In this document: piece by piece, positions 20,101-30,974 of the stretch
Layout of the letters: every line of letters starts with the position of its first letter
Position numbering within the stretch: position 1 is the first letter of the stretch
Assembly: GCA_017484085.1 (NCBI GenBank)
Contig: JAFUTW010000028.1
Coordinates: forward strand, 1 to 47,163
Length of the DNA stretch: 47,163 bases
Reading direction: 5' to 3'
DNA from: Clostridia bacterium
Lineage (GTDB): Bacteria; Bacillota; Clostridia; Christensenellales; Aristaeellaceae
Translations under genes and position numbers: made by a program
The notes under the pieces: model-generated
The model's database searches: none
Seen by the model: only the letters and a program-made list of their open reading frames with translations
Told to the model about the DNA's origin: nothing

Positions 20101-21281
20101 ATGCGGCGGTCATCGTCGCTGCGGGTCGCGGGACGCGCATGGGCGCAGCCGTCAATAAAGTGCTGCTGGACCTTGCGGGGATCCCCGTGATCGTCCGGTC
20201 GGTCCGGGCGGTATCGGAGAGCGGCCTTTTTGATGCTGTCGTCGTCGTGACGGGCGAAGAGGACATCGCAGGCGTCCGGAAGCTGCTGAAGGAGGCGGGT
20301 CTTGAGGCCGCCGTGTGCGCAGGCGGCGCGGACAGGCAGGAGAGCGTGCGGCGCGGCCTTCTGGCGCTGCCGCAGGATACCGGGCTCGTCGCCATCCATG
20401 ACGGCGCGCGCCCGCTGGTGACCCGCGAGATCCTTGCGGCTTCCCTTGAGAGCGCAAAAGACCGGGGGAGCGGCGTGGCGGCGATCCCCCTCAAGGATAC
20501 GGTGAAGCGCGTGGCGGCGAACGGCCGGGTGGCGGAGACGCCGGAGCGCGCGAGCCTGCGCGCGGTGCAGACGCCGCAGAGCTTCCGCTACCGCGAGATC
20601 CTGGAGGCGCACGAGCGCTTTGCGGAAAGCTGCGACCGCGCGACGGATGATGCCGCGCTGCTGGAGAGGAGCGGTGCGGCTGTGTATCTTTCCCCCGGCA
20701 GCGAGGAGAACCTGAAGCTGACCACACCGCAGGATATCGCGGTCGCGGAGCGGATCCTTGAAACGCGGCAAGGTATAAAAAAACAGGAGAAGACGATGGT
20801 GCGCGTTGGACACGGCTATGATGTTCACCGCCTGGCGGAGGGGCGGAAGCTCATCCTCTGCGGGGTGGAAGTGCCCTATGAAAAAGGGCTGCTGGGGCAC
20901 AGCGACGCGGACGTCGCGGCGCATGCCCTGATGGATGCGCTGCTGGGCGCAGCCGCGCTGGGCGACATCGGCAGGCACTTCCCGGACACGGATGAAGCCT
21001 ACGAAGGGGCGGATTCCATGCGCCTGCTGGATGAAGTCCGCGGGATGCTGGAAGCGAAGGGCTTTGCCGTATGCAACGCGGATATCACGATCATCTGCCA
21101 GCGGCCGAAGCTCTCGCCGTACATCGAGGCGATGCGCGCGTGTGTGGCCGGGCACTTGGGCCTCCCCTGCGGCTGCGTGAACGTGAAGGCGACCACGACT
21201 GAGCATCTGGGCTTTGAAGGCGAAGGGCTCGGCATATCCGCGCATGCCGTCTGCTGTATCGAAGAGAGGGCGCATGCCTGA
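20097..21281 (+). CDS. ispDF: bifunctional 2-C-methyl-D-erythritol 4-phosphate cytidylyltransferase / MEcPP synthase
   Basis: 394 residues from GTG at 20097. Residues 1-228 are IspD: '[12 protein letters not shown]' binds CTP, 'HDGARPLVT' and 'AVQTPQSFR' are conserved active-site segments. Residues about 235-394 are IspF: 'GYDVHRL' and 'LLGHSDADV' supply the metal ligands, '[11 protein letters not shown]' and '[12 protein letters not shown]' complete the trimeric active site. IspD makes CDP-methylerythritol and IspF makes the cyclodiphosphate in the MEP isoprenoid pathway; the intermediate IspE is not here. The linker ('[11 protein letters not shown]') contains an AGGAG and an ATG at 20796, so a separate IspF product is conceivable. 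Confidence 0.92.
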
Positions 21282-21897
21282 CAGACGGAGAAGACAGCCG
21301 GAGCACGGCTTGCTCTGGCACGCGGCGGACGGGCTTTTGACCCTGGTGGACTGGATCTGCCGGGGGCTGGCCGATGCGGGCATGCTGGTGCTGAAAGGCG
21401 CCGCAGGGGCGCTGCGGCTTTTGTTCCGAGCGGCTGCAAAACTGTCGGCGCTGCTTTTGAGGCTCATCGCGCTGCCCTTTGTGCTGCTTGGGCGAGCGCT
21501 CGGCGCGGGACAGGACCGCGCTTCGCAGTGCCTTCGCCTGACGGGGGAGGAATTTGAAGAATACTGCGCCCTCATCCTGAAGGACAACGGCTTCCGGCAT
21601 GTGGAGCTGACGCCGATGGGCGGCGACCAGGGCGTGGACATCCTGGCAGTTAAGGACGGCGAATGTTGGGCGATCCAGTGCAAGAATTACAGCGGGGCCG
21701 TCGGCAACTTCGCCGTGCAGGAGGCCTACGCCGGGCGGGAGTACTACGGCTGCGACCGCGCTGCGGTGATCTGCCCCGGTGAGTATACGGGCGCTGCGCG
21801 CGAACTGGCGGAGTCCACGGGCGTGGAGCTTTGGGCCGGGGATACGCTCTCCCGGATGATGAAACGCAGCGGCAGGCGGCCGCGGCACAGGGCCTGA
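21274..21897 (+). CDS. membrane-anchored Mrr-type restriction endonuclease-like protein
   Basis: 207 residues, ATG overlapping the ispDF stop by 8 bases. Residues about 12-80 are hydrophobic, probably two membrane helices. Residues about 88-200 form a PD-(D/E)XK nuclease of the Mrr_cat family: '[19 protein letters not shown]', then '[11 protein letters not shown]' with the catalytic Asp and 'WAIQCKNYS' with Gln-x-Lys, and '[16 protein letters not shown]'. Mrr proteins cut modified or foreign DNA; membrane-tethered forms in Clostridia are uncharacterised. Its place at the end of a housekeeping operon argues for a stable, vertically kept function. GAGAGGG at 21264 is the likely ribosome binding site. 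Confidence 0.8.
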
Positions 21898-21982: not shown

Positions 21983-22059
21983 GGGGTCTTAGCTCAGCTG
22001 GCTAGAGCGCCACGTTGACATCGTGGAGGTCGTAGGTTCGAGCCCTATAGACCCCACCA
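21983..22059 (+). tRNA. tRNA-Val(GAC)
   Basis: 77 nt with encoded CCA. Acceptor GGGGTCT/AGACCCC, D-arm GCTC/GAGC, anticodon stem CCACG/CGTGG with loop TTGACAT (anticodon GAC), variable AGGTC, T-arm GTAGG/CCTAT with TTCGAGC loop. Reads GUC/GUU valine codons. Confidence 0.95.
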
Positions 22060-22292: not shown

Positions 22293-22348
22293 CACATAAA
22301 TAGAATTGACGATAAAGACGCATACAGTTTAACTTGAATAAGATTAAA

Positions 22349-22382
22349 GGAGACCTCTTTACGGGTCTCCTCGTTTTATTTT
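22349..22382 (+). terminator. hairpin with T-rich tail
   Basis: GGAGACC (22349-22355) and GGTCTCC (22364-22370), then TCGTTTTATTTT. On this strand no gene precedes it closely after the tRNA terminator; it could end a small transcript from the repeat region. Confidence 0.55.
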
Positions 22383-22489: not shown

Positions 22490-24268
22490 TTATGAAGGCT
22501 CTTTGTCTCCGCGGCCCGGCCCCCGGTACTGAAGGCAGAGCATGGTCAGGTCGTCGGACGGTTCGGCGCCGTTTGCAAAGGCATCCACATCCGCGCGCAC
22601 ATGCTGCAGGATCTCCTTCGGCGTCTGAGAGGATACGCGGCTCAGTGCCTTCTCCAGCCGGTCCATGCCGTACATTTCCCCGGCGGTATTGTTGGCCTCC
22701 GTTACGCCGTCCGTGTAGACGAAGAGAGCGTCGCCGGGCGAAAGTACCAAGGTGTAGTCCGTGTACTTTGCCTGCGGCATCGCGCCGGCCACCAGCCCGT
22801 GCTTGTCCCGCAGCAGGCGGAACGCGCCGCCCCCGGAACGGACGAACGGGTACTCGTGCCCGGCGTTGGCACAGGCGAGCCGGCCCGTGCTGATTTCCAG
22901 GATGCCGAGCCACACCGTGACGAACATCTTCAGCCGGTTGTCTTCGCAAAGCTGGACGTTTACGGCCTCCAGGATCTCACGGGGGCTCCCGCCCATCTGC
23001 GCGCGGTAGCTGATGAGGTTTTTGGCCGACATCATAAACAGCGCGGCGGGCACGCCCTTGTCGGATACGTCCGCGATCACCAGGGCCAGATGGTCATCGT
23101 CCACCAGGAAGAAATCGTAAAAGTCGCCGCCGACCTCCTTGGCGGGGGCCATGCAGGCATAAAGGTCGAACTCCGGGCGGCCCGGGAAGGCCGGGAATTG
23201 CTTGGGCAGCGCAGAGCTCTGGATTTTCGCGGCCATGTGCAGCTCGGTGTTGACCCGCTCCCGCTCGGCGGTAATGCTCGTCAGCTGGTCGGCATTGTCC
23301 ACGATACGCTCCTGCATGGACCGTATTTCACGGTACAGATCGCCGATCTCGTCGTTCGAGCGGATCGGGAGGCTGATCACGTCCTCCCTCGAGAAGCCGC
23401 CGTCTCCCCGGCCAAAGCCCGTAGCCCCTTCGGCCAGATGTGAGAGCGGTTCGGTCGCCAGCTTCCGCGTAAGCAGCATGCTGGCCGCGATCGCCGCCAG
23501 GGTGAGCGCTGCGATGAACAGTATGCTGTTCACAAGGAACCAGTGGCGCTCCCTGATCACGTCGTTCATGTCGATATCCACGCATGCCTGCCCGACGGCT
23601 ACCTTTTCGCCGTTCACTTCTTCCATAATGGGCTCGCAGGCGGTGCAGAGCCAGTCGTCTCCGAACCGGTAGACGGTAGGCGGTATGCGGTCGTTACCGG
23701 TGTACTCGGCTAAGGCTTCGATGGGCGCCTCCGCCGTGCCGATCACCAGCAGGCTTTCATCCGGATCCAGCAGATTGTAGGTCACGCCGTCTGCGACATA
23801 CTGTATGTACGCGCACTTGATCATGAAATCGGTCTTGGCGGCAGCTACAGAGTCGCACAGCATCCTGTAATCTGCGTACAAGTTGTAGGAAGCCTTCTGC
23901 TCCTCGCCCAGCTTATCCCCGTAGTCTTCAAGGAGGGTCTGATAGACGGGGCTCGGCGGCTGACGCTGCATCCACTCCTTCAGGATCTCTTCGTCGTTTG
24001 CGGCCGCGGCGCGCTCACGCACCTCGCGGAAGGCGTCGTTGTCGATGCTCCGCCGCAGATAGGATACGTAATCATCGAAAATATAATAGCGTGCCACTGC
24101 GCGGGAAGCGCGCCCGGCCTGTTCCAGATAGAAGCTGTCCACCTTCCGGGAATAGACTGTATAGGTGGTGCGCACAAGGCCCAGCGAAACCAGCAGGATG
24201 CAGACGGTCAGAACGATGTTCAGCTTTGTGCGCAGCCCGAAGCGGTGCCTTTTTCGCATCCCGTTCAT
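22490..24268 (-). CDS. SpoIIE-type PP2C phosphatase with sensor and HAMP domains, paralogue 1
   Basis: 592 residues. Membrane helix 1 (about 15-33), an extracytoplasmic sensor of some 200 residues, membrane helix 2 (about 247-268), a HAMP-like linker ('RKLATEPLSHLAEGATGFGRGD'), a coiled coil, then the SpoIIE/PP2C domain: 'EVGGDFYDFFLVDDDHLALVIADVSDKG', 'NAGHEYPFV', 'LFVYTDGVTEANN' and 'SDDLTMLCLQY' provide the Asp residues that bind Mn2+/Mg2+. Such proteins dephosphorylate phospho-STAS anti-anti-sigma factors in response to an outside signal. The ATG at 24268 overlaps the stop of the second paralogue (ATGA), so the two are translationally coupled. The STAS targets are likely those encoded divergently. 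Confidence 0.88.
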   Translation of the reverse strand: MNGMRKRHRFGLRTKLNIVLTVCILLVSLGLVRTTYTVYSRKVDSFYLEQAGRASRAVARYYIFDDYVSYLRRSIDNDAFREVRERAAAANDEEILKEWMQRQPPSPVYQTLLEDYGDKLGEEQKASYNLYADYRMLCDSVAAAKTDFMIKCAYIQYVADGVTYNLLDPDESLLVIGTAEAPIEALAEYTGNDRIPPTVYRFGDDWLCTACEPIMEEVNGEKVAVGQACVDIDMNDVIRERHWFLVNSILFIAALTLAAIAASMLLTRKLATEPLSHLAEGATGFGRGDGGFSREDVISLPIRSNDEIGDLYREIRSMQERIVDNADQLTSITAERERVNTELHMAAKIQSSALPKQFPAFPGRPEFDLYACMAPAKEVGGDFYDFFLVDDDHLALVIADVSDKGVPAALFMMSAKNLISYRAQMGGSPREILEAVNVQLCEDNRLKMFVTVWLGILEISTGRLACANAGHEYPFVRSGGGAFRLLRDKHGLVAGAMPQAKYTDYTLVLSPGDALFVYTDGVTEANNTAGEMYGMDRLEKALSRVSSQTPKEILQHVRADVDAFANGAEPSDDLTMLCLQYRGPGRGDKEPS

Positions 24269-26040
24269 GCCGTCACCCCCTCTGCGGAGCGCCGGCCCCT
24301 GTATTCCAGGCAGAGCAGGGTCAGATCGTCGAACGGATCCGCGCCCGCCGTAAAGGCGTCCACGTCCGCGCGCACGGCGCGCACGATGCCCTCGGGATTT
24401 TCGGCGGCCGCCCGGTTCAGCGTGTCATTCAGCCGCTCCATGCCGTACATCCCGCCTGAAGCGTCGTTCGCCTCCGGCACGCCGTCGGTGTAGACGAACA
24501 GGGCGTCTCCCGGCTCCAGCTGCAGGGTATAATCCGTGAACTTCGCATTCTTCATTGCGCCGGCCATCATGCAGTGACGGTCCCGATAGACGCGGAATGT
24601 CCCGCGGGAGCGGATGAACGGGTATTCATGTCCGGCGTTGACGCAGCTGAGGCAGCCTGTGCTGATCTCCAGGATGCCCAGCCACACCGTGACGAACATC
24701 TTCATTTCGTTGTTCGCGCACAGCTGGGCGTTGACGGACGCCAGGATCTCGCCGGGCGTTCCGCCCATCCGCGCGCGGAAGCGGAGGATCGTCTTTGCGG
24801 ACATCATAAACAGCGCGGCAGGCACGCCTTTGTCGGATACGTCCGCGATCACCAGGGCCAGGTGGTCGTCGTCCATCATAAAGAAGTCATAGAAATCGCC
24901 GCCCACCTCCTTGGCGGGGGCCATGCCGGCATAAAGGTCGAATTCCGGGCGGTCCGGGAAGGCGGGGAAGTTCGTGGGCAGCATGGCGCTTTGGATCCTG
25001 GCCGCCATGTTCAGCTCGGTGCTGACGCGCTCCCGCTCCGCGGTGACGCGGGTCAGCGTGTCGGCGTTATCCACGATGCGCTCCTGCATGGACTGTATCT
25101 CACGGTACAGATCGCCGATCTCATCGCCCTGGCGGATGGGCAGCCGGAGGATGTCGTCCCTTGAAAAGCCCTCGTCTCCCTTGGCAAAAGCGGTAGCGCC
25201 GCCGGCCAGAAGCTTCAGCGGTTTCGTGACCAGCTGACGGGTCAGCAGCAGGCTGACGGCAATCGCTGCCAGGGTGAACAGCGTGACGATCAGGGCGCTG
25301 TTCATGAGAAACCAGTGCCGCTCCCTATAGACATCGGTCAGGTCGACGTCCGCGCACACCTGCGCGATCGCGATCTCCCCGCCGTTCACCTCTTCCATGA
25401 CCGGCTCACAGGCGGTGCAGAGCCAGCTGTCCCCGTACGGATAGACGATGGGCGGTACGCGGTCGTTGCCGGTGTACGCGGCAAAGGCCTCGATGGGCGC
25501 CTCCGCCGTGCCGATCACCAGCAGGTTTTCATCCGGATCCATCAGGTTATAGGTCACGCCGTCTTCGACGTACTGTATGTAAAGGCTCCTCACGCTGTAA
25601 ACGGATTTGGCGTCGGTAAACCACTTGACCAGCGTCCTGTACACGCCATAGAGGGTGTATTCCTGCTTTTCCTCCTCGGTCATCTCCGCTTCATGTCTTT
25701 CAAAAAACTCCTGTTCGTAGTCGACCGTCGGCTGTGCGAGCATCCATTCCCTGATGATCCCTTCATCGCCCTGGGCAGCAGCCCGGGCATACACCTCACG
25801 GAACGCGTCGGTACGGGTCATTTCCTTGAGATACATCACATAGCCATAAGGCAGGTATTGATTCACAGCTGCGCGCGCGGCATACTCAGTCTGGTCGAAA
25901 TAAAGGGCATCCATCTTGCGGCAGTAAACCGTGTAGGTGATGCGGAGCAGCCCCAGTGAGACCAGGAGGATGCTGACGATAAGCGTAAGGTTCAGCTTTG
26001 ACCCAAGGCCGATGCCGCGCCGTTCTTTTCCCTTGCCCGT
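24265..26040 (-). CDS. SpoIIE-type PP2C phosphatase with sensor and HAMP domains, paralogue 2, apparent ACG start
   Basis: About 591 residues if started at ACG 26040, the position matching the ATG of paralogue 1 (592 residues); both are preceded by GGGGGTGACGG. An in-frame ATG at 26172 overlaps the -35 of the visible promoter and would add residues unlike the paralogue. No ATG, GTG or TTG occurs in frame between the predicted transcript start and a Met after the first membrane helix. Domain order is the same: membrane helix, sensor, membrane helix, HAMP ('RQLVTKPLKLLAGGATAFAKGD'), PP2C ('DVSDKG', 'VYTDGVPEANDA', 'FDDLTLLCLEY'). Sensor parts share 'YIQYV.DGVTYNL.DPDE.LLVIGTAEAPIEA', so both probably see related signals. 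Confidence 0.82.
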   Translation of the reverse strand, partial: TGKGKERRGIGLGSKLNLTLIVSILLVSLGLLRITYTVYCRKMDALYFDQTEYAARAAVNQYLPYGYVMYLKEMTRTDAFREVYARAAAQGDEGIIREWMLAQPTVDYEQEFFERHEAEMTEEEKQEYTLYGVYRTLVKWFTDAKSVYSVRSLYIQYVEDGVTYNLMDPDENLLVIGTAEAPIEAFAAYTGNDRVPPIVYPYGDSWLCTACEPVMEEVNGGEIAIAQVCADVDLTDVYRERHWFLMNSALIVTLFTLAAIAVSLLLTRQLVTKPLKLLAGGATAFAKGDEGFSRDDILRLPIRQGDEIGDLYREIQSMQERIVDNADTLTRVTAERERVSTELNMAARIQSAMLPTNFPAFPDRPEFDLYAGMAPAKEVGGDFYDFFMMDDDHLALVIADVSDKGVPAALFMMSAKTILRFRARMGGTPGEILASVNAQLCANNEMKMFVTVWLGILEISTGCLSCVNAGHEYPFIRSRGTFRVYRDRHCMMAGAMKNAKFTDYTLQLEPGDALFVYTDGVPEANDASGGMYGMERLNDTLNRAAAENPEGIVRAVRADVDAFTAGADPFDDLTLLCLEYRGRRSAEGVTA

Positions 26041-26143
26041 ACCGTCACCCCCTGTGCCGTATCCTTTGCCGCAGCCCGGCTGTCTGCGGCCGGCTGCTGT
26101 TTCAAAACGGCCCCCGACCGGAAACCATAAAACACCAACTATC

Positions 26144-26172
26144 ATTATAGCATTCGTGAAATGCTTCCGCAA
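26144..26172 (-). promoter_or_regulatory. promoter of the SpoIIE-type phosphatase pair
   Basis: Minus strand: TTGCGG (26172-26167), 17 bases, TATAAT (26149-26144). Places the transcript start near 26137 and makes an ATG start at 26172 unlikely. Confidence 0.65.
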
Positions 26173-26199
26173 CGCGCATTAAAAAACGGCGTTATACCA

Positions 26200-26228
26200 T
26201 TGAATTTCCGGCGGGATTTCTATACAAT
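26200..26228 (+). promoter_or_regulatory. promoter of the partner-switching operon
   Basis: TTGAAT (26200-26205), 17 bases, TACAAT (26223-26228). Divergent from the phosphatase promoter, with the -35 hexamers about 28 bases apart, so a regulator bound between could control both. Confidence 0.65.
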
Positions 26229-26321
26229 TGATCATGCGGATTGATCCGGCTGAGACTCGGATGTCCTTTGCAGCCGGACTGCGTGCTTTTCACGGGAAGA
26301 CCACAGAGTCGGGAGAAAACC

Positions 26322-26732
26322 ATGCAAGAGATGACAGTCAGCGCTACCATGGATCAGATCGGACCGGTAACGGAATTCGTCAACACGCAGCTGGCACAGC
26401 TGGCATGCCCGGAGCGGATCCGGATCCAGGTGGATGTGGCGGTCGACGAGCTGTTCGGCAATATCGTCCGCTACGCTTACGGGTCAGGAACAGGGCCGGC
26501 CACGGTGCGCGTGGATGTGGAGGACGAACCGCTGCGCGTCATCATCAGCTTTGTCGACAATGGCGTGCCGTATGATCCGCTCTCAGCAGAGTTTGCGGAC
26601 ACGACGCATCTGCCGGCGAAGGAGCGCCCTATCGGCGGACTGGGCCTGTACATGGTGAAAAAGACCATGGACGACATCAGCTACTGCTACCGGGACGGGC
26701 AGAATATACTGACCATACGCAAGAGCATCTGA
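26322..26732 (+). CDS. RsbW/SpoIIAB-like serine kinase (GHKL ATPase)
   Basis: 136 residues, ATG after GGGAGAAAACC. N-box 'VDVAVDELFGNIVRYAYG', G1-like 'FVDNGVPYDPL' and G2-like 'PIGGLGLYMVKKTMDDISY' form a complete GHKL ATP site. RsbW-type kinases phosphorylate a Ser on a STAS partner and bind either that partner or a target protein. It is the first gene of an operon with two STAS proteins, opposite two PP2C phosphatases: the full set for a partner-switching cycle. No sigma factor gene is nearby, so the usual target is missing or encoded elsewhere. Confidence 0.85.
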   Translation: MQEMTVSATMDQIGPVTEFVNTQLAQLACPERIRIQVDVAVDELFGNIVRYAYGSGTGPATVRVDVEDEPLRVIISFVDNGVPYDPLSAEFADTTHLPAKERPIGGLGLYMVKKTMDDISYCYRDGQNILTIRKSI

Positions 26733-26764
26733 ATCAGAAACAGAATGAACGGGAGGAAAGCACC

Positions 26765-27085
26765 ATGTCTGCGACGGTATATGAAAAAACGAACGGCGTT
26801 CTGAGGGTATATCCCGAGGGGCGGCTGGATACGGCGACCTCGCCTGCGCTGGAGAGGGAACTGCACCAGCACCTGGAAGGCGTTACGGATATCGTCATGG
26901 ATTTCGCCAAAGTGGAATACATTTCATCCGGCGGCCTGCGCGTGCTGCTGGCGCTTGAGCAGCTGATGGAGGAGCGGGGCGGCGGTCTCAGCCTCACCCA
27001 CGTGAATGAGAACATCATCGAGATCTTCGAGCTGGTCGGCTTTATGGAAGTCGTCAAAGTCGAACGGGACTCTGAAAGGGAGTAA
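26765..27085 (+). CDS. STAS-domain anti-anti-sigma-like protein (RsbV/SpoIIAA-like)
   Basis: 106 residues, ATG after GGGAGGAAAG. STAS fold with 'GRLDTATSPALERELHQHL' and the switch segment 'VEYISSGGLRVLLAL'; Ser55 lies where SpoIIAA is phosphorylated, with Ile-Ser in place of the usual Asp-Ser. It is the expected substrate of the kinase encoded 32 bases upstream and of the SpoIIE-type phosphatases. It is 6 bases ahead of the STAS-phosphotransferase fusion gene. Confidence 0.88.
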   Translation: MSATVYEKTNGVLRVYPEGRLDTATSPALERELHQHLEGVTDIVMDFAKVEYISSGGLRVLLALEQLMEERGGGLSLTHVNENIIEIFELVGFMEVVKVERDSERE

Positions 27086-27091
27086 AGGGCC

Positions 27092-28270
27092 ATGCTTCAG
27101 GCAAAACAGCAAGACGGGCGGCTTGTGATCGCCATTGACGGCAACATCAATTCATCCAACGCCGCAGCCTTTGAAACCGAACTGAGGGAGCTCTACGGTG
27201 CGCAGTCCTGCAGCAGCGTGGAGCTGGACTGCGATAAGATGGAGTACAGCAGCAGCGCTGGCCTGCGCGTGATCCTGCGCTTCAAGCAGGACGTGGACGA
27301 TACCGTGCTGACGAACGTCCACCAGGAGCTGTACAACATCTTCGACATGACGGGCTTCACCGAAATGATGGAGGTGCGCAAGGCCTACCGCGTGGTTTCG
27401 GTGGAGGGCTGCGAAGCGATCGGCCAGGGCGCCAACGGCAAGGTGTACCGGATCGACCCGGACACCATCGTCAAAGTCTACCTGAATCCCGATGCACTGC
27501 CGGAGATCCAGCGGGAGCGGGAGCTGGCACGGCTGGCGTTCGTCGCCGGTGTGCCGACGGCGATCCCTTATGACGTGGTGCGCATCGATGGGGGCGGATA
27601 CGGCTCTGTCTTCGAGCTGCTGAATGCGACCAGCTTTGCCAAACTGATCATCCGCGGCGAAAAGACGCCCGACGAGGTGGCGGAAATGAGCATCCGCCTG
27701 CTGAAGATCATCCACTCCAAGGAAGTGAATTCGGAGATCCTGCCGGACATGAAGGCGGTCGCGCTCAATTGGGCGGAGTTTCTGAAGGATTACCTGCCGC
27801 AGGAGCAGTACGACAAGCTGCATGCGCTGATCGAGGCGGTGCCGGAGGATGCGCACCTCATGCACGGCGACTACCATATCAAAAACGTCATGCTGCAAAA
27901 CGGCGAAAGCCTGCTCATCGACATGGACACCCTGTGCCATGGGTATCCGGTCTTTGAGCTGGCCAGCATGTACAACGCCTATGTCGGCTTCGGGCTGACA
28001 GACCCCGGGAAGCAGATGTCGTTTTTCGGCATCCCGCGCGACATCTGCGAGCGCTTCTGGCGCAGGAACCTGGCCCTCTACCTGGAAACGGAGGACGGGC
28101 GCAGGATGGATGAGGTGGAGGCCAAGGCGAAGATCGTCGGCCTTACCCGGCTGCTGCGCAGGGAGATCCGCCGGGACGGGCTTAACCGGGAGGACGGCCG
28201 GAAGATGATCGAGGCCTGCCGCCAAGGCCTGGCGGAACTGCTGCCCCGGGTGGATACGCTGGTGTTCTGA
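27092..28270 (+). CDS. STAS domain fused to an aminoglycoside-phosphotransferase-like kinase
   Basis: 392 residues. Residues 1-95 are a STAS domain with switch segment 'KMEYSSSAGLRVIL' (Ser54/Ser55). From about 105 a kinase-like fold follows: Gly-rich loop 'IGQGANGKVYR', Lys128 in 'TIVKVY', catalytic 'HGDYHIKNVM' (258-267) and metal-binding 'LLIDMDTL'. This resembles the TIGR02172-like phosphotransferase family. The fusion puts a small-molecule or protein kinase under control of a partner-switching domain: the RsbW-like protein could phosphorylate or bind the STAS part and so regulate the kinase. Substrate unknown. ATG follows AAAGGGAGTAAAGG. Confidence 0.82.
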   Translation: MLQAKQQDGRLVIAIDGNINSSNAAAFETELRELYGAQSCSSVELDCDKMEYSSSAGLRVILRFKQDVDDTVLTNVHQELYNIFDMTGFTEMMEVRKAYRVVSVEGCEAIGQGANGKVYRIDPDTIVKVYLNPDALPEIQRERELARLAFVAGVPTAIPYDVVRIDGGGYGSVFELLNATSFAKLIIRGEKTPDEVAEMSIRLLKIIHSKEVNSEILPDMKAVALNWAEFLKDYLPQEQYDKLHALIEAVPEDAHLMHGDYHIKNVMLQNGESLLIDMDTLCHGYPVFELASMYNAYVGFGLTDPGKQMSFFGIPRDICERFWRRNLALYLETEDGRRMDEVEAKAKIVGLTRLLRREIRRDGLNREDGRKMIEACRQGLAELLPRVDTLVF

Positions 28271-28271
28271 C

Positions 28272-29135
28272 ATGGCACACACGCTTAAAATCGACCTGCA
28301 TATGCACTCGACGGTGTCCGACGGCACGGACGCGCCGGAGACACTGCTGGAACGCGTCCGGGAAGCCGGCATCGAGCTGTTTGCGCTGACCGATCACGAC
28401 GCGGTGAAGGGCTGCGGCAGGGTGCGGCGCGCGCTGAGGGACGGCGATCCGCAGTTTCTGAACGGCGTGGAATTTTCCTGCCGCGACGGGGAGGGAAAAT
28501 ACCACATCCTCGGTTATGGATACGACGCGGAAAGCCCGTCCATCCAGAGCGTCGTGCAGAAGGGACATGATCTCCGCATGAAGAAGGTCGCCGCGCGGCT
28601 GGACTTTATCCGCAAGGCGTTCGGCTTCACCTTCCCGGAGGAGGAGACCCGGCACCTGCTGGCGCTCGACAACCCGGGCAAGCCGCACATCGGGAACCTG
28701 ATGGTGAAGTACGGCTATGCCAAGAGCAAGGAGCAGGCGATCGACGAATATCTCAATCAGGCCAAGATCCGCAGCGAATACATCCGTCCGGAGGAAGCCA
28801 TCGAAGGCATCCTGGGGGCGGGCGGCATCCCCGTGCTGGCACATCCGCCCTTTGGGAGCGGAGACGAGCTGATCCTCGGCGGGGAGATGGAAAGCCGCCT
28901 GCGGCGCCTTGTCGGCTTCGGCCTGCGCGGCATGGAGTGCTTCTATTCCGGCTTCACGCCGAAGCTGCAGGCGGATATGCTGTCCTTTGCGGAAGAGTAT
29001 GGCCTTTACGTCACGGCCGGCAGCGATTACCACGGAAAGAACAAGATCATAGCCATCGGCAATACCCATATCGCCAGCGTTCCGGAGATCCCGGACGGCA
29101 TGCGGCGCTTCCTGGAGGAGGTCGGCTTCCTGTGA
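28272..29135 (+). CDS. PHP-domain phosphoesterase (RNase AM/YciV-like)
   Basis: 287 residues, start 1 base after the previous stop. Metal ligands: 'DLHMHSTVSDG', 'ALTDHDAV', 'NGVEFSC', 'LAHPP' and 'AGSDYHGKNK' near the end, the complete PHP set. Members hydrolyse 3',5'-nucleoside bisphosphates or degrade short RNA 5' to 3'. Tight coupling to the STAS-kinase gene hints that it belongs to the same pathway, for example acting on a nucleotide product, but this is only context. Confidence 0.8.
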   Translation: MAHTLKIDLHMHSTVSDGTDAPETLLERVREAGIELFALTDHDAVKGCGRVRRALRDGDPQFLNGVEFSCRDGEGKYHILGYGYDAESPSIQSVVQKGHDLRMKKVAARLDFIRKAFGFTFPEEETRHLLALDNPGKPHIGNLMVKYGYAKSKEQAIDEYLNQAKIRSEYIRPEEAIEGILGAGGIPVLAHPPFGSGDELILGGEMESRLRRLVGFGLRGMECFYSGFTPKLQADMLSFAEEYGLYVTAGSDYHGKNKIIAIGNTHIASVPEIPDGMRRFLEEVGFL

Positions 29136-29201
29136 CAGACGGGGACAAAACGGCCTTCTGCCATTTCTGACAGGCTGCGCGGCAGCGAGGAGACACAGTC
29201 G

Positions 29202-30974
29202 ATGAAATCGTTTAATGAGGACGCGCGGGTCATATCAAAGCTGATGCTGCGGCTCCTGCCGATCCAGGTCTTGCTTGCTGCAGTAGGAGCGGTCAACGGC
29301 ATCGTTTCGAGTTATTTTGCCGGCAATTACGTCGGTGTCGACGCGATGGGCGCCATAGGGCTTTATGGCCCGATCAACCTGCTGGTGGGTGCGTGCTGCA
29401 CGATGCTCTCGGGCGGCGCCACCATCCTCTGCGGCCGGTACCTGGGCAGGAACGACCAGGACAGGGTCCAGAGCGTGTTTTCGCTGAATCTGCTGATCTC
29501 GCTGCTGTTTGCGGGGCTGTTTACCGTTTTGTTCCTTTTGATGGGGCTGCTGGACAGGACGGCGGTGTTCACGAGGGATGAGGCGGTGCGCCCCCTTTTC
29601 AACCGCTATCTGATCGGTCAGGTGATCGGCATCATCCCGTTCGTGCTGGGAAATCAGCTGCCGGCCTATCTCACCATGGAGAACATGGACCGGCGTTCCA
29701 TCACCGCAAGCCTCGTCTACATCGGGGTCAACGTTGTGCTGAACATCCTCTTTGTCCAGCTGCTTCACCTGCAGGTCTTCGGCCTTGCGCTGGCGTCCTC
29801 TCTGGGGCTTTGGGTCTTCTTCGGGGTGCAGGCGCAGGCCTTCCTCTCCGGAAAGACGAGCCTGCGCCTCAGGCTGAAGCGCCTGATGTGGCAGGACGGC
29901 AGGGAGATCCTCAGGATCGGCCTGCCGGGGGCTGCCAGCACCGGGTTTCAGTCCCTTCGGGGCATCATCGTAAACCACCTGCTGGAGGTGTTTGTCGGCA
30001 GCGTCGGTATCTCGGCCTTTGCCGCGTCGGACAATCTGCTGCGGTTTTTCTGGGCGGTCCCCGCCGGCATGCTGGCGGTTTCCCGCCTGATGATCAGCCT
30101 GAGCGTGGGGGAGGAGGACCGGGAGACGCTGACGGACGTGATGCGCATCATGTTCCGGCGCTTTGTACCGATGATGTGCCTGATCTCCGCGGGGATCATC
30201 CTTTGCGCAAAGCCGCTCACCGGGATCTTTTTCCGCGACCCGTCAGAGCCGGTCTACCGGATGACGGTATGGGGGTTCCGGATCCTTCCGCTGTGCATGC
30301 CGCTGAGCGTCATCTGCATGCATTTCGTGTGCTACGGGCAGACCTCCGGCAAACAGGGGCTCGTGCATCTGCTGTCCCTGCTGGACGGGATCTTGTGCGT
30401 CGCGGGCTTCTCGGCGCTGCTGATCCGGCGGCTCGGCATGAACAGCGTCTACATCGCGAACGTGCTGAACGGCATCGTGTGCGTGGCGGTCATCCTCGGC
30501 TATTCCTGCCTGAAGATGAAACACTTCCCGGCTGATATGGAACAGCTGATGGTGATCCCGGATGATTTCGGCGTACCGCCGGAGGCCAGGATCGACATCT
30601 CCGTACAGAACATGGACGAAGTGCTGACGGTGTCCCGGCGCGTTACCGAGTTCTGCCGCAGGCGCGGGATCGACGGGCGGCGGACTTACCTGGCGAGCCT
30701 TTGCATGGAGGAAATGGCAGGCAACATCGTGGAGCACGGCTTTACGAAGGATCGCAGGCGCCATTCGATCGACATCCGCGTCGTCCACAAGGACGAGGAC
30801 ATCATCCTGCGCATCCGGGATGACTGCAAACCCTTTAACCCGCAGGAGAGAAAGGCGCTGACCGACCCCAAGGACCGGCTGAAGAATGCCGGTATCCGCA
30901 TCGTCTATCAGATCGCGCGATCAGTCGAGTATCAGAACATCCTCGGCCTCAATATGCTGACGCTGAAGATCTGA
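29202..30974 (+). CDS. MATE-family transporter fused to an RsbW-like ATPase domain
   Basis: 590 residues. Residues about 10-440 form twelve membrane helices of the MATE type, with two homologous halves ('NGIVSSYFAGNYVGVDAMGAIGLYGPINLL' and 'GISAFAASDNLLRFFWAVPAGML'). After a short linker, residues about 455-590 form a GHKL domain: N-box 'CMEEMAGNIVEHGF', G1-like 'RIRDDCKPFNP' and a reduced G2 'NAGIRIVYQIA'. MATE proteins export drugs or metabolites using Na+ or H+. The cytoplasmic ATPase is of the serine-kinase/anti-sigma class and probably binds or phosphorylates the STAS proteins of this operon. Start ATG after GCGAGGAG, 66 bases behind the PHP gene. Confidence 0.82.
   Translation: MKSFNEDARVISKLMLRLLPIQVLLAAVGAVNGIVSSYFAGNYVGVDAMGAIGLYGPINLLVGACCTMLSGGATILCGRYLGRNDQDRVQSVFSLNLLISLLFAGLFTVLFLLMGLLDRTAVFTRDEAVRPLFNRYLIGQVIGIIPFVLGNQLPAYLTMENMDRRSITASLVYIGVNVVLNILFVQLLHLQVFGLALASSLGLWVFFGVQAQAFLSGKTSLRLRLKRLMWQDGREILRIGLPGAASTGFQSLRGIIVNHLLEVFVGSVGISAFAASDNLLRFFWAVPAGMLAVSRLMISLSVGEEDRETLTDVMRIMFRRFVPMMCLISAGIILCAKPLTGIFFRDPSEPVYRMTVWGFRILPLCMPLSVICMHFVCYGQTSGKQGLVHLLSLLDGILCVAGFSALLIRRLGMNSVYIANVLNGIVCVAVILGYSCLKMKHFPADMEQLMVIPDDFGVPPEARIDISVQNMDEVLTVSRRVTEFCRRRGIDGRRTYLASLCMEEMAGNIVEHGFTKDRRRHSIDIRVVHKDEDIILRIRDDCKPFNPQERKALTDPKDRLKNAGIRIVYQIARSVEYQNILGLNMLTLKI

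Follow-up and report, generated by a model that had tools for sequence, protein, structure and literature searches.

Partner switching and its known outputs

Partner switching is best known as a form of gene regulation that works through sigma factors. In the SigB and SigF switches (RsbU-RsbV-RsbW and SpoIIE-SpoIIAA-SpoIIAB, respectively) the parts are a PP2C phosphatase, a STAS protein bearing a motif serine and a GHKL kinase with a Glu and an Asn in its N-box, and the phosphorylated residue of RsbV and SpoIIAA is the STAS-motif serine directly after Asp. All of these parts recur in a seven-gene locus (positions 22490 to 30974) on contig JAFUTW010000028.1 of the Clostridia bacterium assembly GCA_017484085.1, the whole 47,163-nucleotide stretch of which was analysed (here, the window). 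Unlike the SigB and SigF switches, the locus and its genome have no detected cognate sigma factor, and the locus carries a STAS domain fused to an APH kinase, a second GHKL domain on a transporter and a phosphohydrolase gene. Judging from sequence, it is probably a sigma-independent partner-switching module whose main output is a STAS-gated APH kinase with a paired phosphohydrolase, the MATE transporter being an optional addition.

Partner switching directed at an enzyme, and not at a sigma factor, has a precedent in SiaABCD of Pseudomonas aeruginosa, where a PP2C phosphatase, a kinase and a STAS-like protein are reported to control the diguanylate cyclase SiaD (PMC7647112, PMC8457831). Sigma-free, enzyme-directed partner switching is therefore not a new category. 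The locus shares that principle but differs in its output, a STAS-fused APH-type kinase paired with a phosphohydrolase, together with a MATE-GHKL protein. None of its seven proteins contains a diguanylate cyclase domain, and its phosphatases match the SiaA model NF038263 weakly (70 of 700 bits). In the SypE-SypA system of Vibrio fischeri, the STAS protein SypA is described as active when unphosphorylated, with its target unknown; unlike our locus, SypE-SypA is given no APH, PHP or MATE component in the available portion of that report (PMC8256260).

Two protein families are also close to parts of the module. The APH part matches TIGR02172, a family of APH-like paralogues, but lies under its cut-off and is fused to a STAS domain. 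The small alarmone hydrolases (Lmo0812, 7qoe, Tde-SAH) resemble an HD protein found beside relatives of the STAS-APH gene, but that protein does not occur in this window and its activity is putative. Among the titles and abstracts listed for the open-licence literature, we found none describing partner switching with this combination of parts, and no paper on TIGR02172. The first-pass annotation of this DNA had suggested that the locus would be an undescribed signalling-to-export system. That description fits the combination of parts, which was not met in the literature searched (this does not prove novelty), but not the principle, which is known.

Gene content and catalytic motifs

Pfam and NCBIfam profile searches recovered all seven genes with the domains and order that the first-pass annotation had assigned. 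Two sensor phosphatases, A (22490 to 24268) and B (24265 to 26172), are encoded on the minus strand and overlap by 4 bases. These tandem paralogues share 65% identity across 578 aa and have SpoIIE (PF07228) matches of 1.3e-50 and 4.1e-49 and HAMP matches of 7.7e-4 (under the cut-off) and 3.3e-6, respectively. Phosphatase A consists of N-terminal hydrophobic stretches (by eye), HAMP and SpoIIE (PP2C) domains; the start codon of B is uncertain, being either TTG at 26172 or a later ATG. The plus strand encodes an RsbW-like GHKL serine kinase (26322 to 26732; HATPase_c_2, PF13581, 8.3e-21), a stand-alone STAS protein (26765 to 27085; STAS 1.2e-16), the STAS-APH fusion (27092 to 28270; STAS 1.7e-13; APH, PF01636, 8.2e-17, over cut-off), a PHP-family phosphoesterase (28272 to 29135; PHP 1.3e-9; NF041577 2.7e-37, below its cut-off) and a MATE transporter with a C-terminal GHKL domain (29202 to 30974; MatE 2.8e-16; HATPase_c_2 8.8e-13, with the GHKL domain at about 30567 to 30971). 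No sigma factor gene is present among the seven.

The RsbW-like kinase, when aligned with RsbW, retains E43 (codon 26448 to 26450) and N47 in the N-box as well as a GGLGLY G2 box. Across 89 aligned sequences, the Glu and the Asn are each conserved in 90% or more, and the sole solved-structure match is to RsbW (6m36). When the two STAS domains are aligned with RsbV, SpoIIAA or TM1442, S55 of both (codons 26927 to 26929 in the stand-alone protein and 27254 to 27256 in the fusion) falls on the motif serine that comes directly after Asp, and it is the candidate phosphoserine in each. Judged by its domains, the RsbU/V/W-type set is complete, comprising a GHKL kinase with Glu and Asn, STAS domains with the serine and two SpoIIE phosphatases. 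The two STAS domains of the locus share 29% identity and its two GHKL domains share 18%.

In the STAS-APH protein, Ser55, K128, E142, H258, D260, N265 and D277 are unvarying in 32 of 32 aligned proteins. The invariance of the last six suggests that the APH part is an active kinase; it has the ATP lysine (K128), the HxD loop (H258-x-D260) with N265 and the metal-binding D277 by which an APH-type kinase is recognised. Its match to TIGR02172 covers 189 residues (6.2e-23; 81.8 bits against a cut-off of 228.2), and its likeness to other APH profiles is weak (hygromycin-B 4-O-kinase, 4.1e-5; choline kinase, 0.07). No NCBIfam resistance model exceeded its own cut-off for any protein of the locus.

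One kinase, two alternative phosphohydrolases

STAS-APH relatives (E<=1e-20) are present in 31 of 396 genomes of the host's order, sampled from a larger group, and in 21 of 142 genera; in the whole-genome searches only the best few candidates per genome were scored (3, 4, 6 or up to 8, depending on the search). Scanning GTDB contigs with the STAS-APH alignment gave at least 597 candidate stretches, at least 514 of them encoding relatives. The 31 loci from the order and the best 80 of the GTDB stretches together form a set of 111 neighbourhoods, in which L135 and L211 are identical, others are close and the two sources may overlap. The best 80 derive mostly from rumen, gut or faecal metagenome-assembled genomes of Bacillota, with some Spirochaetota, and Butyrivibrio sp. 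XPD2002 (L214) is the sole apparent cultured strain among them; its locus shows GHKL, SpoIIE and STAS but neither PHP nor HD. Neighbours were called within 7 kb from stop-to-stop frames, using HMM thresholds of 200 bits for PHP, 150 for HD, 60 for SpoIIE, GHKL, STAS and GHKLg, 100 for MATE and 30 for sigma factors. The HD protein of L164 and the PHP protein of L191 fell below threshold and were left out of the counts, as was the divergent fused HD of L143, which was scored as having neither hydrolase.

Parts of the switch recur in these neighbourhoods: a GHKL domain in 87 of the 111 (26 in the order set and 61 in the GTDB set), SpoIIE in 56 (16 and 40) and a lone STAS protein in 53 (15 and 38). 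The STAS-APH gene is adjoined by a PHP gene in 27 loci (8 and 19) and by an HD gene in 41 (13 and 28), the two never occurring together, and the gap between hydrolase and STAS-APH is 0-81 bases in the order set and 0-375 bases in the GTDB set. The same exclusion holds across genomes. Of the 396 genomes, 11 have a close PHP relative (E<=1e-100), and all 11 contain STAS-APH; 16 have a close HD relative (E<=1e-45), and 14 of these contain it. At looser cut-offs (1e-60 for PHP and 1e-22 for HD) the proportions are 11/14 and 16/32. Even at these looser cut-offs, none of the 396 genomes has both. Exactly one close hydrolase is found in 25 of the 31 STAS-APH genomes. A further genome, G120, has a fused, divergent HD, and in G190, G213, G303, G327 and G336 a close hydrolase is lacking or matches weakly. 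The hydrolase is on a different contig from STAS-APH in G044, G399 and G158. Distant PHP proteins (30-37% identity) are present in most of the 31 genomes, the host included, so the association with STAS-APH holds for the close PHP subfamily only.

On a tree of the STAS-APH domains (n=108), the PHP and HD labels require 3 changes, each of them imposed by supported branches; shuffled labels require 21.6. The tree was built quickly and contains some long branches, and L160, L215 and L221 (short) and L209 (no STAS) were left out of it. PHP and HD have thus been swapped at least three times in the STAS-APH tree. Given this slot pattern and the co-occurrence, the conserved core looks like a kinase (STAS-APH) and an interchangeable phosphohydrolase under partner-switch control. 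Beside one STAS-APH gene (L153:5972-6976), the slot is occupied by an apparently different, CehA-like PHP protein (by eye), which gave no Pfam match.

The two hydrolases resemble enzymes of related chemistry. The PHP protein is similar to 3e0f, to 2yb1 (listed as an amidohydrolase, with a nucleotide role) and to the 5'-3' exoribonuclease 7ug9, and it scores 128.4 bits against NF041577, a nucleoside 3',5'-bisphosphate phosphatase model with a curated cut-off of 400. The HD protein resembles Lmo0812 (alignment of residues 3-185, E=2.7e-25), 7qoe and RelA/SpoT. A related small alarmone hydrolase, Tde-SAH, is reported to remove the 3'-diphosphate of (pp)pGpp and (p)ppApp (PMC10434055).

Natural fusions of the module parts

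Four kinds of fusion join SpoIIE, GHKL, HD and STAS-APH. STAS-APH and GHKL lie on a single chain in 40 of the 111 loci (13 and 27; for example L183:759-2336), and in 30 (11 and 19) the closest GHKL domain is part of a SpoIIE fusion. SpoIIE is fused to HD in L203, L205 and L216, all from Spirochaetota (Pfam-checked for L205), and in G120 HD-STAS-APH forms one open frame of 582 aa. No PHP fusion was seen among the 111 loci. These fusions, the strongest evidence in this analysis, support the view that the GHKL and STAS parts of the module work together.

MATE-GHKL and other transporters

The MATE part of the seventh protein matches PF01554 in two stretches (60.1 bits; cut-off 24.9) and TIGR00797 at 77.9 bits, below the cut-off of 147.4, and its GHKL domain retains E504 (codon 30711 to 30713) and N508 in 8 of 8 aligned relatives. 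Close MATE-GHKL relatives (E<=1e-100) occur in 7 of the 396 genomes; six of the seven contain STAS-APH, where 0.55 would be expected (five of six once the host is set aside). The two genes are linked in the host (G000), G091 and G174, and unlinked in G044, G213 and G134. For 25 MATE loci chosen from the matches, the MATE and GHKL profile call held for 23, and a STAS, GHKL, STAS-APH or SpoIIE gene lies within 7 kb in six of these (L039, L041, L044, L046, L058 and L062). The host genome has a second MATE-GHKL protein, encoded at C38. A lone APH-type kinase gene without STAS is found directly beside MATE-GHKL in L054 and, weakly (34 bits), in L056; in L055 an APH gene is beside a MATE gene for which GHKL was not called.

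SDF (dicarboxylate symporter)-like proteins are encoded near STAS-APH in four loci (L150:2782-4449, L166:5319-6971, L171:5175-6920 and L181:2885-4504), with PF00375 checked for those of L171 and L181. Their N-terminal domain is degenerate and gave no Pfam GHKL match; in a profile comparison it matched the module GHKL with 93.7% probability, the MATE GHKL with 15.8% and STAS with 0.1%. Transporters of two families, MATE and SDF, may therefore carry GHKL tags near the module.

Proposed mechanism

In the mechanism that we propose, a signal from the envelope or from outside would be sensed by the two phosphatases, which would remove phosphate from Ser55 of both STAS domains; the RsbW-like kinase would put it back. 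Unphosphorylated STAS domains would bind GHKL domains, and the state of the STAS domain would determine how active the APH kinase joined to it is. That kinase would phosphorylate a small molecule. The PHP enzyme, or the HD enzyme in relatives, would take the phosphate off the APH product. Where MATE-GHKL is present, as in the host and certain other genomes, its GHKL domain would offer a second docking site, and the same switch may gate transport. Most likely, the switch would act on how much of a phosphorylated small molecule there is, and sometimes on where it moves, not on transcription. Signalling to export, as proposed by the first-pass annotation, is one possible output.

Sigma factors and alternative explanations

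The host genome (80.75% complete, 0.35% contamination) gives five Sigma70_r2 matches, namely one RpoD, one SigH and three ECF-like proteins. None is near the locus, and on these grounds we rejected the idea of a missed sigma factor there. The SigB/F/G model has no match in the host genome at E<=1e-45, and the same is true of nine other STAS-APH genomes (G044, G091, G213, G254, G272, G351, G369, G387 and G425), making 10 of 31, of which seven are at least 90% complete. Among the 31 genomes, just one SigB/F/G match shares a contig with STAS-APH, at a distance of about 90 kb (G303). A sigma factor gene was called no more than 7 kb from STAS-APH in 5 of the 111 loci (3 and 2): SigK-like in L131 and L138, RpoD-like in L141, SigH/ECF-like in L200 and SigG, on the other strand, in L201. 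Sigma factors are thus not regular neighbours of homologous loci, and the full kinase, phosphatase and STAS set without a sigma factor, as first described for this DNA, is confirmed at the locus and conserved elsewhere.

Several observations nevertheless count against a sigma-independent module of this composition. A SigB/F/G match at E<=1e-45 is present in 21 of the 31 STAS-APH genomes (18 over cut-off). Neither PHP nor HD was seen in 43 of the 111 loci, some of which are on short contigs. The PHP and HD labels are strongly clustered by ancestry, which the co-occurrence statistics ignore, so that the independence of their exclusion is overstated. The GHKL boxes of the MATE protein depart from the usual form in 8 of 8 relatives (D-x-C for D-x-G, and G-x-R for GxGxx); the departures are held by the majority in a wider set of 30 sequences, where the Asn too is present in a majority only. 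A sequence search with this domain found no solved relative below E=0.5, and no RsbW-like structure. When MATE-GHKL relatives are taken down to E<=1e-40, STAS-APH is present in just 7 of 17 genomes, and in 1 of 10 among the weaker ones, which is chance level; the link to STAS-APH therefore belongs to one MATE-GHKL subfamily. Of the 23 MATE-GHKL loci, 15 have no module part within 7 kb. MATE-GHKL, called in 9 of the 111 STAS-APH loci (2 and 7), is an optional part of the module, and the seven-gene association sought on the strength of the first-pass annotation is narrowed to STAS-APH with PHP or HD as the conserved core.

The main rival, which we regard as unlikely, is a conventional partner switch whose target is a sigma factor or other transcription partner encoded elsewhere (RpoD, an ECF factor, SigH, or a SigB/F missing from the incomplete assembly), with STAS-APH and MATE as passengers. 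The incompleteness of the host genome and the SigB/F/G matches in most STAS-APH genomes favour it, as does a report of a Chlamydia partner switch acting on a primary sigma factor (PMC4552016). It sits poorly with the ten genomes that lack a SigB/F/G match in spite of their mostly high completeness, with the rarity of sigma genes beside STAS-APH, and with the 40 loci that place STAS, APH and GHKL on one chain. Another reading, which also seems unlikely, is that the module serves to modify and transport a small molecule of a drug-like or envelope-related kind; the APH kinase would phosphorylate it, the MATE protein would carry it and PHP or HD would take the phosphate off again. The weak likeness of the APH part to an antibiotic kinase and the stand-alone APH genes adjoining MATE genes in L054, L055 and weakly L056 (25 MATE loci examined) point towards such a role, but 102 of the 111 STAS-APH loci lack MATE-GHKL and no resistance model passes its cut-off. 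Mere adjacency of separate genes is very improbable; the parts are not always together, as the SpoIIE (56/111) and lone STAS (53/111) counts show, but repeated fusions, the neighbourhood counts and genome-wide co-occurrence across the 396 genomes (11/11 and 14/16) led us to reject it.

A narrower form of the sigma-independent reading, overlapping it, is that the APH kinase writes and PHP or HD erases a 3'-phosphorylated nucleotide, giving a second-messenger cycle under partner-switch control. We advance this tentatively, on the supposition, drawn from their relatives, that both hydrolase families act on 3'-phosphorylated nucleotides. It draws on the likeness of PHP to NF041577 and 2yb1, on that of HD to Lmo0812, 7qoe and RelA/SpoT together with the Tde-SAH chemistry, and on the filling of one slot by two unrelated folds with related chemistry. 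Set against this, PHP falls well under the NF041577 cut-off, HD spans only part of the RelA/SpoT model, the APH profile matches are weak, and of the 14 genomes in which STAS-APH and a close HD are found together, 13 give a further match in a frame of at least 710 aa, presumably a long Rel. A fuller version remains more speculative: a second-messenger-like circuit of gut bacteria, in which the STAS-gated APH kinase would write the signal (probably a 3'-phosphorylated nucleotide), PHP or HD would erase it, the sensor-phosphatase partner switch would set the balance, and the same STAS domains would gate GHKL-tagged MATE or SDF transporters.

Expression signals and neighbouring genes

The first-pass annotation had described back-to-back promoters between the phosphatase and kinase genes. 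A weak sigma-70-like match (9/12 positions) is present on the plus strand at 26200 to 26228, upstream of the kinase operon, in a scan that found 6 sites against 2.5 expected; the same scan gave no minus-strand match in the gap, and the claim of strong divergent promoters was dropped. A likely terminator hairpin with T-runs on both strands (22347 to 22372; strand not assigned) lies just past the end of the phosphatase genes, from a terminator-like scan with 10 sites found against 6.5 expected. Further out in the window, an Mrr_cat restriction-endonuclease-like protein (21214-21897; E=6.5e-27), which by eye has a hydrophobic stretch at its N-terminus, is encoded upstream of tRNA-Val (21983-22059). 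None of the seven locus proteins matched a PADLOC anti-phage defence model, and a known defence system was rejected.

Elsewhere in the host genome there are further components of this kind, the totals being 8 SpoIIE matches, 6 HATPase_c_2 matches (5 over cut-off) and 3 STAS domains; this locus accounts for two of the three STAS domains. A second partner-switch pair at C11 (L067:8582-12471) consists of a SpoIIE-GHKL frame of 993 aa and a lone STAS protein, without STAS-APH. Two other proteins recur near STAS-APH. One, of about 210 aa, is found in nine loci (L136:10414-11172, L165:5063-5695 and relatives) and appears by eye to be a divergent GHKL-like protein, with no Pfam match for the L165 member. 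The other, a YdcF/DUF218-like membrane protein (by eye), is present in 15 loci (for example L132:3579-4802 and L149:2620-3993).

Implications

Many gut bacteria carry a conserved gene set in which a partner switch is physically joined to a kinase of the small-molecule type, an enzyme that removes phosphate and, in some cases, a membrane pump, pointing to a little-studied signalling circuit. It gives a common context to proteins of unknown role, namely STAS-APH, MATE-GHKL and these PHP and HD proteins, and it makes the substrate findable, as the molecule that the APH kinase makes and that both PHP and HD hydrolyse. If the proposal is true, partner switching would extend to direct control of metabolite chemistry, and perhaps of transporters, in Clostridia of the rumen and gut and in Treponema.

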